A stretch of 16,034 bases of DNA, from the NCBI GenBank assembly GCA_016193065.1, contig JACPSX010000164.1, positions 1-16,034 on the forward strand, in the 5' to 3' direction. The position numbers and the translations under genes were made by a program. Positions 3,874-7,138 of the stretch are shown here, in pieces. The DNA comes from Candidatus Tectimicrobiota bacterium (GTDB lineage Bacteria; JACPSX01). The notes beneath the pieces are model-generated. The model did not search any database. It was not told the DNA's origin and worked only from the letters and a program-made list of their open reading frames with translations. Each line of letters begins with the position of its first letter. Positions within the stretch are counted from its first letter, which is position 1.

Positions 3874-3921
3874 TTGGCCATCCTTGGATTTGTCCAGGAG
3901 GAAAGGACAGGGGGTTCGATT

Positions 3922-5385
3922 ATGCTGCCGGAAAACATACCGGAAGCCTTGACGTTTGATGACCTGCTGTTGGTGCCCGGGCGCTCCCGGGTCTTGCCAC
4001 GTGATGTGGATGTAACCACCATGCTGACCCGGAAGATTCGCCTGAATACTCCCCTGGTCAGCGCCGCCATGGACACGGTCACGGAATCGGCGCTGGCCAT
4101 CGCCCTGGCTCAGGAGGGGGGAGTCGGAATCATCCACAAGAATCTGTCCATCGCGTCCCAGGCCCACGAGGTGGATAAGGTGAAGCGGTCGGAGAGCGGG
4201 ATGATCGTGGATCCGATCACCATAGGGCCTGATCGCAAGGTCAGCGACGCCCTGGAACTCATGAGGCGTTACCGGATCTCCGGGGTCCCGATTACCCGGG
4301 GGACCAAGCTGGTGGGGATCCTGACCAACCGGGATCTGCGCTTCGAGACGAACCTGGAGAAGAAAATCGGCGATCTCATGACCAAGGAGAATTTGATCAC
4401 CGCGCCCGAGGGAACCACCCTGGAGCAGGCCAAGAGAATTCTCCACGAGAACCGCATCGAAAAGCTCCTGGTCGTGGATCGGGAGTTTAACCTGAAAGGG
4501 CTCATCACGATCAAGGACATTGAGAAGGCTCGAAAGTATCCAAACGCCTGCAAGGATTCCCTGGGCCGGCTGATGATTGGAGCCGCGGTGGGGGTTGGTG
4601 AAGATCGGGCCGAGCGCGTGCAAGCCCTGGTCGAGGCAGGGGTGGATGTGCTGGCGGTGGATAGCGCTCACGGCCATTCGGAAGCGGTCTTGAAAACCGT
4701 GGAGTGGATTAAAGGAAACTACCCCCAGCTTCAGGTCATTGCGGGAAACGTGGCGACGGGGGAGGGGACCCGCGATCTGATCCAGGCAGGCACCGATGCC
4801 GTCAAGGTCGGCATCGGGCCCGGCTCCATCTGCACCACGCGGATCATCGCCGGAGTGGGCGTTCCCCAACTGAGCGCCGTCTCCGAGTGCGCCCGGGCGG
4901 CGGCCGAGGCCGGCATTCCCATCATCGCCGACGGGGGCATCAAGTTCTCCGGGGACCTGACCAAGGCCCTGGCGGCGGGGGCCAACTCCGTGATGATCGG
5001 CGGCCTCTTTGCGGGCACCGAAGAAAGCCCCGGAGAGAAGGTTCTCTTCCAAGGCCGCAGCTACAAGGTCTACCGCGGGATGGGATCCATCGGCGCCATG
5101 AGCGAGGGGAGCAGCGACCGCTACTTCCAGGAAGGAGAGCTTTCCGATGCCAAGCTCGTCCCCGAAGGGGTGGAAGGCAGAATCCCCTACAAGGGCCCCG
5201 TCTCCTCCGTGGTTTTCCAGTTGATCGGCGGGCTCAGGGCGGGCATGGGCTACTGTGGGGTCGCCACCATTGAAGAGCTCAGGCGCCATTCCCGTTTTGT
5301 GCGCATCACTTCCGCAGGGCTCAAAGAGAGTCACGTCCATGACGTGATTATCACCAGAGAAGCCCCGAATTACCAGAGGGAGTAG
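3922..5385 (+). CDS. guaB: Inosine-5'-monophosphate dehydrogenase
   Basis: The enzyme oxidises IMP to XMP with NAD+, the committed step of GMP synthesis. The 487-residue length is standard. The start of the barrel reads [19 protein letters not shown], and two CBS domains sit at about residues 90-205 ([14 protein letters not shown] to [13 protein letters not shown]). The phosphate-binding loop and catalytic cysteine are in [18 protein letters not shown] with Cys304. The flap region has [10 protein letters not shown] and DRYFQ, and the C-terminal loop has RAGMGYCG. I chose ATG 3922, preceded by AGGGGG 7 bases upstream. A TTG further upstream (3874) abuts the promoter -10 box and cannot be transcribed from it. 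The last codons form part of a 12-base direct repeat that flanks a palindromic insertion. guaA follows. Confidence 0.97.
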
Positions 5386-5542
5386 TGCCGGGCCAATTAA
5401 CTTCGCCTAACTTCGTTTATCGCCCCTCGCGCTCCCTGCGGCGTACTTTCTATGTACGCCTCAGTCGGCTCGGGGCTCGCGCCTCGTTATGCTCGTTTCT
5501 TGGCCCGGCAATATGCCGAGAGTTTTCGTCCGATTTAATTGG
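5386..5542. repeat. Palindromic MITE-like element between guaB and guaA
   Basis: The core 5386-5510 has perfect 11-base inverted ends, TGCCGGGCCAA and TTGGCCCGGCA (5500-5510). Its centre is a hairpin, CTG-C-GGCGTAC (5436-5446) with GTACGCC-T-CAG (5454-5464) around a 7-base loop. A second inverted pair, GCCAATTAA (5392-5400) and TTAATTGGC (5535-5543), spans the whole element. Immediately outside, CAGAGGGAGTAG occurs as a perfect direct repeat at 5374-5385 and 5543-5554, as expected of a target duplication. Removing the element and one repeat copy would leave guaB and guaA about 24 bases apart, like the other gene pairs here. It encodes no protein. It may be a MITE or REP-type element moved by a transposase elsewhere in the genome. 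Confidence 0.7.
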
Positions 5543-5578
5543 CAGAGGGAGTAGGACTCCGTTGGAGAGACACTAGGC

Positions 5579-7138
5579 GTGGACATCCGCGGGGACAAGA
5601 TCCTCATCCTTGATTTCGGCTCCCAGTACACCCAGCTCATTGCTCGCCGAATCCGGGAACTGAAGGTGTTCTCGGAGATCGTGCCCTTTTCCATGCCGGC
5701 TTCCGAAATCCGGCGGCAGGCCCCGAAGGGTCTGGTCCTTTCCGGGGGGCCCGCCAGCGTGTACGCCGCCGATGCTCCGATCTGTAATCCCGAGATCTTC
5801 TCGCTGGGGATTCCAGTGCTGGGGATCTGCTACGGCATGCAGGTCATGGCTCACCTCCTGGAGGGGAAGGTCAGCAGTTCCGCCAGGAGAGAGTACGGAC
5901 CGGCCCGGCTCCTGATCGACCGGGAGGTGGATCTCCTGAGCGGCCTGGAAGACAACGGAGCCCCGAACGGGACACCCGTGTGGATGAGCCACGGGGATCG
6001 CATCGAGAAGCTTCCGGCGGGATTTGTCCCCCTGGCCCACACGGATAACTCCCCCGTGGCGGTCATGGGTTCGCCGGCCCGCAGGCTCTACGGGGTCCAG
6101 TTCCATCCGGAGGTTGTCCATACTCCGAAAGGGGGCGTTTTATTTGCAAACTTTCTGTTTCGCGCTTGCAGTTGTACCCCCAGTTGGTCCATGGCCTCCT
6201 TTGCTGCTGAAGCGGTTGGTGAGATCCGCCGCAGGGTGGGAAGCGCTCGGGTTCTTTGCGCATTGAGCGGGGGGGTTGACTCCTCCGTGACGGCTGTCCT
6301 GGTCCACCGGGCGATCGGTGAGCAGCTCACCTGCGTGTTCGTCGACAACGGGCTCCTGCGGTCGGGGGAAGCGGAGGAGGTGGAGGCCACCTTCCGGCGC
6401 CACTTCCACATGAACTTGCGGGTGGTCGACGCCGGGCAGCGGTTCCTCTCCCGGCTGGCCGGCGTGGAAGATCCGGAGCAGAAGCGCAAGATCGTGGGGG
6501 AGGAGTTCATCGCCGTCTTTGAAGAGGAGGCAGGGCGGCTGGGAGAGATTCAGTTTCTGGCCCAGGGGACTCTTTACCCGGATGTGATCGAGAGCCGCTC
6601 GGTGCGCGGCCCTTCCGCGACCATCAAATCCCACCACAACGTGGGCGGCCTCCCGGAGCGGCTCCACTTTCAGCTCATCGAGCCCCTCAAGGATCTGTTC
6701 AAGGACGAGGTGCGCCGCCTGGGAAAAGAGCTCGGAATCCACGGGTCCATTCTCTGGCGCCAGCCCTTTCCCGGTCCCGGTCTGTCCATCCGGGTCCTTG
6801 GTCCGGTGAGCCGCGAAACCCTGGACCTGGTCCGGCAGGCGGACCGCATCCTTTTAGAGGAAGTCGAAGCGGCGGGACTTCTCGAACGCCTGTGGCAGTC
6901 CTTTGCCGTTTTGTTGCCGGTGCGGAGCGTGGGGGTGATGGGGGACGAGCGGACATACGAGCAGGTGGCCTGCCTGAGGGTCGTGGAGAGCCAGGACGGC
7001 ATGACGGCCGACTGGGCCAGGCTCCCCTACGATCTCCTGTCCCGGGTTTCCAACCGGATCATTAACGAAGTACGGGGAATCAACCGGGTGGTTTACGACA
7101 TCAGCTCGAAGCCGCCCAGCACGATTGAGTGGGAATAG
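5579..7138 (+). CDS. guaA: GMP synthase (glutamine-hydrolysing)
   Basis: The 519-residue product converts XMP to GMP using ATP and glutamine, completing the pathway begun by guaB. The class I glutamine amidotransferase domain (about 1-195) starts [20 protein letters not shown] and carries nucleophile Cys84 in GICYGMQ, with His176 and Glu178 in FHPEV. The ATP pyrophosphatase domain has the P-loop SGGVDSS (230-236). The dimerisation domain ends with the canonical [14 protein letters not shown] and [16 protein letters not shown]. The start is GTG 5579, with GGAG 11 bases upstream; no better start exists before DILILDFG-like sequence. dnaE begins 12 bases downstream, so the two are probably co-transcribed. 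Whether the upstream palindromic element lowers read-through from guaB is unknown. Confidence 0.97.

Follow-up and report, generated by a model that had tools for sequence, protein, structure and literature searches.

Examination of the window, that is, the whole stretch of 16,034 nucleotides analysed here, revealed the gene run mutL-guaB-guaA-dnaE-accA, in which the identities of guaB and guaA are secure. Between these two genes lies a palindromic stretch of 157 bases with a central hairpin, and a 12-base sequence stands directly on both sides of it, as the preliminary description had stated. The features of the locus are the following.

3874 to 5385, + strand: guaB (IMP dehydrogenase), the upstream gene, from its translation and NCBIfam TIGR01302 (E 6e-196)
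5374 to 5385, + strand: left direct repeat CAGAGGGAGTAG, read from the sequence; its terminal GTAG is an NTAG target of the family type
5386 to 5510, + strand: element core of 125 bases, with an 11-base perfect inverted repeat, TGCCGGGCCAA / TTGGCCCGGCA, at its ends
5386 to 5417, + strand: conserved left end TGCCGGGCCAATTAACTTCGCCTAACTTCGTT, comprising the left terminal repeat and a subterminal motif
5425 to 5475, + strand: central imperfect hairpin around GCGGCGTAC-N7-GTACGCC, from sequence, fold and copy alignment
5511 to 5542, + strand: right tail of 32 bases, alignable with the tails of complete copies
5543 to 5554, + strand: right direct repeat CAGAGGGAGTAG, read from the sequence; its GTAG is the right NTAG
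5579 to 7138, + strand: guaA (GMP synthase), the downstream gene, from NCBIfam NF000848 (E 3e-240)

The left copy of the direct repeat corresponds to the guaB C-terminus (...EAPNYQRE) and its TAG stop, which occupies 5383-5385 and closes the copy. The guaA gene starts with GTG, 24 bases beyond the right copy, and 24 bases is also the distance from the guaB stop to the guaA start when the insert is left out. Among 808,758 comparisons of exact 12-mers lying 140-190 bases apart in the whole window, the CAGAGGGAGTAG pair is the only match, so a chance origin is ruled out. The 11-base perfect inverted ends reported earlier are present, TGCCGGGCCAA (5386-5396) being perfectly complementary to TTGGCCCGGCA (5500-5510) over 11 bp; they close the core at 5386-5510 and not the 157-base element, which continues for 32 more bases (5511-5542). 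This tail ends in TTAATTGG, which can pair with the left terminal repeat (5392-5400 with 5535-5543). No open reading frame of at least 80 residues is confined to the 157-base element.

A search of the draft genome (86% complete, 294 contigs) for further copies, the follow-up proposed in the preliminary description, recovered six relatives of the core at unrelated sites, with 74-91% identity, making seven copies in all and bearing out the idea of a non-autonomous, multicopy insertion; these related copies carry 4-base NTAG duplications. The matched stretch comprises 128 bases, the core together with the TAG at 5383-5385. These window-type relatives begin with TAGTGCCGG.CCAAT, the left terminal repeat of the type being CTAGTGCCGG.CCAAT, and AACTTCGCCTAACTTC in the left end is kept in six of the six copies reaching that end. 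In every complete left end of the genome TAG directly precedes TGCCGG or TACCGG, so the left boundary at guaB is the NTAG target of the family as well as the guaB stop. Four complete copies (L003, L004, L006 and L007) run past the inner repeat into a tail of about 43 bases that ends in ..TTGGAACGGCACTAG or a near-match, which is the right repeat of a second family: about twenty paired miniature inverted-repeat elements (MITEs) of 106 bases with the ends CTAGTGCCGTTCCAACT...AGTTGGAACGGTACTAG. The terminal inverted repeats of the family are CTAGTRCCGTTCCAACT at both ends. Dispersed copies, terminal inverted repeats, a target duplication and the lack of a transposase gene of their own place these elements among the bacterial MITEs. 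Bacterial MITEs are represented, for example, by those of Pseudomonas syringae (PMC3189936). Like bacterial MITEs in general, the present elements are short, non-coding and multicopy, with terminal inverted repeats, a short target duplication and a longer gene-bearing relative; they differ in that this relative encodes a GIY-YIG protein, not a DDE transposase, and in their preference for TAG stops. A scan of contigs with one MutL fragment returned three distant loci only and no close relative.

Two other repeats were encountered in the same genome (G000). One is a distinct short repeat around CACCCACAAGGTGGGTACCCGCC, dispersed over the genome and nested inside the window-type copies L005 and L007 (query 43-69 of L007; matches at C13:3199, C149:33250, C182:28139, C140:4902, C99:7775 and others). 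On C200, an inverted-repeat stretch around CCGTTCGCCCTTCGACAAGCTCAGGACGAACGG with its mirrored partner (L103:1440-1560) adjoins a solo CTAGTGCCGGTCTAATTA end.

Folded as RNA, the region reaches -74.4 kcal/mol, against -62.1 +/- 4.0 kcal/mol for shuffled sequences (z -3.1). Such a strong fold between two co-oriented genes would suit a fixed structured RNA or attenuator of the guaBA operon instead of a mobile element, a reading that we regard as extremely unlikely: the dispersed copies contradict it, since the relatives adjoin unrelated genes, no Rfam family is matched anywhere in the window, and neither a uridine-rich terminator nor any of the three weak terminator-like matches lies at the element end. 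An integron attC site, raised by the motif GCCTAAC, was set aside, since reading of the sequence revealed no right-hand core site to match.

The target duplication of the family is 4 bases long, NTAG, and the earlier view that the 12-base repeat is the duplication made by the element is not supported. CTAG flanks most copies on both sides; such pairs are ambiguous because CTAG is palindromic. The informative pairs, TTAG/TTAG in L033 and in the window-type copy L004 and CCAG/CCAG in a second genome (G412), are not palindromic and match, hence a direct duplication of 4 bases. The window copy is flanked by GTAG/GTAG. The further 8 bases of its 12-base repeat stand for the right terminal repeat, a situation found in this single copy, where CAGAGGGA in the right repeat occupies the place of the outermost 7 terminal-repeat bases of the others; the left end is thus intact and the outermost right end replaced. 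The tail (5511-5542) aligns best with G467, G421 and L004, 0-2 of 500 shuffles being as good, and weakly with L003 and L007, and NTAG follows TTGG after 8 bases, against 7 in the other copies. From this spacing and the tail alignment, the right end of the window copy is therefore in register.

On the simplest account, a 4-base duplication came first, and the right end of the window copy would then have received 8 bases copied from the left flank. A 12-base repeat that is a genuine target duplication, made when an element with an already damaged right end integrated with an unusually long stagger, would explain directly why the repeat is perfect and abuts both edges and why the right terminal repeat is missing. 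We consider this unlikely, though deserving of some weight: a duplication above about 4 bases is found in no other copy, and a long stagger does not predict a right end in register (8 versus 7 bases). Under the preferred account, the outermost right repeat would have been overwritten by 8 bases of left flank, either later or during insertion, through template switching from one GTAG to the other, and a 4-base duplication would look like one of 12 because of that overwriting. Having lost its right end, the window copy is probably immobile, a non-autonomous passenger.

The GTAG tag and the palindromic structure of the window copy also recall REP sequences. REPs carry GTAG at one of their ends, and terminal inverted repeats border certain RAYT-like genes; like the present elements, REPs are palindromic, repeated, often located downstream of genes and provided with a TAG-containing tag (PMC3733652). 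They differ in length, the elements described here measuring 106-350 bases and not 20-40, and in the duplication of NTAG at both ends, where a REP carries GTAG at one end only (PMC3733652). In the window copy alone is the tag GTAG; other copies have CTAG or TTAG, duplicated at both ends, and the matched TTAG/TTAG and CCAG/CCAG copies speak against a REP origin. Single-strand transposition by Y1 enzymes is not known to yield a duplicated target at both ends. Moreover, no Y1 gene was seen between such ends in the loci read, and movement as a REP or TIRtron-type repeat by a RAYT or TIRYT, with GTAG as the tag, thus appears highly improbable.

The landing at the end of guaB without damage, already remarked upon in the preliminary description, finds its counterpart in much of the family, where a TAG stop is the NTAG target. 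In the draft genome, a gene's own TAG stop served as the target in 17 of 26 insertions. Over six genomes this was so for 47 of 79 insertions (about 60%), versus 26% of comparable CTAG sites outside coding interiors, and the ratio of stop to intergenic positions was 47:29 for insertions and 29:82 for other CTAG sites (Fisher p 1.9e-6), with stop codons called by codon-usage gene prediction and the background drawn partly from the same loci as the insertions. The upstream gene is unharmed because duplication of CTAG restores its stop, and the harmless landing on guaB follows from the preference of the family for TAG stops. The enrichment may reflect either targeting or survival. The family is defined by TGCCG..CCAA terminal repeats, a 4-base NTAG duplication (usually CTAG) and this TAG-stop preference.

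Such ends also occur in another phylum. The 17-base end was found in one of 385 other bacterial genomes searched (G225); within the phylum of that genome, 19 of 95 genomes have the terminal repeat, and G470 carries about 350 ends. The window-type architecture, CTAGTGCCGTTCCAACTAACTTCGCC...TTTGGCCCGGCAC...CGTTGGAAGTCCACTAG, was found in G467, including AACTTCGCC; G465 holds its left part, cut by a contig end, and G421 an internally deleted form, and a motif related to the window left end is present in all three. No match to the related element L018 or to the GIY-YIG protein was obtained in plasmids, none to the window element in phages, and none to the element patterns or the GIY-YIG protein in viral contigs.

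Several arrangements were observed beside these. In G225, an element of 349 bases with exact 17-base terminal repeats (L110:1501-1849, on C9) has no recognisable GIY-YIG gene, and its open reading frame ...LDFLSNEESSLIEPKVVETKKVLNGLIRALRDNL may be captured cargo. At G470:C3:113-288, two tandem MITEs share one CTAG, the arrangement to be expected if a MITE inserts into the CTAG that borders an earlier copy. At G470:C54:21700-22008 (L180), five tandem 25-base units CTAGTGCCGTTCCAACTATTCGCGC precede the remainder of the MITE, which runs to the end of the contig; the unit is the terminal piece of the MITE from the outer to the internal CTAG, and the array suggests repeated events at CTAG.

The preliminary description had proposed looking for a transposase gene between ends like these. 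A gene was found within the ends of the sister MITE family; it encodes a GIY-YIG nuclease, for which the role of transposase is a candidate one. In G470, near-identical copies of 320 bases, bounded on each side by an exact terminal repeat, code for a GIY-YIG protein of 93 residues (PF01541, E 4e-11; 43.5 bits, the cut-off being 22.6). The terminal repeat and the CTAG contribute the last residues of this protein, LERH, and its TAG stop. About 20 copies or fragments of this element are present in that genome, and its 90-base MITE consists of the two ends of the 320-base element with the middle removed by internal deletion. A 62%-identical GIY-YIG reading frame, open through the coding region and bounded by the same ends, is carried by G407. 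Changes between the G470 and G407 genes number 29, 22 and 53 at the three codon positions, the third being highest, and pN is 0.25 against a pS of 0.75; the excess of third-position changes and a pN well below pS suggest selection on the protein. Such ends enclose remnants in G398 and G413, a remnant in G393 adjoins a single end, and the genome of the window itself has one decayed 289-base copy with such ends (C84:7453-7741). No GIY-YIG gene with these ends was found in the MITE-rich genomes G412, G399 and G395, and such ends border none of the GIY-YIG matches outside the clade. Nor was one found between window-type (CCGGGCCAATTAACTTCG) ends, to which the link runs via the shared right repeat and NTAG. 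Most likely, the wider family has its coding form in the element of about 320 bases, with a GIY-YIG nuclease of about 93 residues as its sole gene.

In the main competing explanation, the element is an ordinary MITE, a DDE transposase from an insertion sequence absent from the draft genome cross-mobilises it, and the GIY-YIG gene is a passenger. Insertion sequences of the IS5 group make YTAR target duplications, which the 4-base CTAG and TTAG duplications resemble, many MITEs outlive their source, and a genome 86% complete in 294 contigs could lack it. The GTAG and CCAG pairs fall outside YTAR, and no DDE transposase was found between such ends. No pair of these ends at insertion-sequence size occurs in the genome of the window or among the ends listed for G470, whose multicopy gene-bearing element is the GIY-YIG one, from which its MITEs derive. 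Our search of the window's genome for DDE genes covered the DDE_Tnp_1 profile, and the sole match, a 470-residue reading frame on C242, has no such ends nearby. We judge cross-mobilisation by a DDE enzyme to be unlikely, though deserving of weight. More generally, among the ends that could be read, neither a DDE nor a tyrosine transposase was seen between them. Single ends in G470, considered as edges of larger insertion sequences, turned out to belong either to MITEs whose second end has decayed or to GIY-YIG copies truncated where a contig stops; no insertion sequence accompanies those in G393. The reading frame on C242 (L101/L107, G000:C242:1-3500) stands beside a second one, with no ends of the present family; by eye we take the former to be IS1380-like and the adjoining one to resemble ISKra4-type transposases.

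With the UPF0213 proteins 1zg2 and 1ywl the G470 protein shares a single GIY-YIG domain of about 90 residues. It differs from known GIY-YIG nucleases in that its gene is bounded by terminal repeats, is multicopy and is linked to MITE deletion derivatives. GIY-YIG restriction enzymes are palindrome cutters and can cut short palindromes as dimers. To our knowledge, none of the GIY-YIG proteins has been established as the transposase of elements with terminal repeats, and a literature search for GIY-YIG proteins with MITEs, terminal repeats or insertion sequences, its scope excluding preprints and most subscription journals, returned nothing relevant.

Taken as a whole, the explanation that we hold to be probable is that of a MITE at the guaB stop with a 4-base NTAG duplication, a GIY-YIG nuclease as its mover and an 8-base overwrite of the right end. 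The element would have inserted at the GTAG of the guaB stop region and duplicated it; with GTAG duplicated, the stop of guaB and the ribosome-binding region of guaA are both preserved. The nuclease, probably acting as a dimer on the palindromic CTAG, would make cuts with a 4-base stagger at CTAG or NTAG, both where elements end and in the targets, and would move its own element and, in trans, the deletion derivatives, those with window-type ends included. Gap filling is more likely than simple ligation of CTAG overhangs, which would not explain TTAG/TTAG. The stronger proposition, that a single GIY-YIG nuclease of about 93 residues and host repair suffice to move the 320-base element and its non-coding derivatives through cuts at CTAG/NTAG, with stop codons as preferred landing sites, is put forward tentatively, as something that we would not yet bet on.

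The window case illustrates how a 4-base duplication can pass for a 12-base one. A preference for landing on stop codons would let a parasite insert between co-transcribed genes without damaging them and would explain how such elements build up by the hundred in a genome. Should the GIY-YIG gene be what drives mobility, a class of nuclease not established as transposing bacterial elements with terminal repeats would be at work in an element barely above MITE size; were the nuclease and host repair sufficient, this element would rank among the smallest autonomous transposable elements known and bring a new transposition chemistry to bacteria. The feature between guaB and guaA is a MITE of a family that we have not found described, and its GIY-YIG partner would, if it is active, represent a new kind of transposable element in bacteria.
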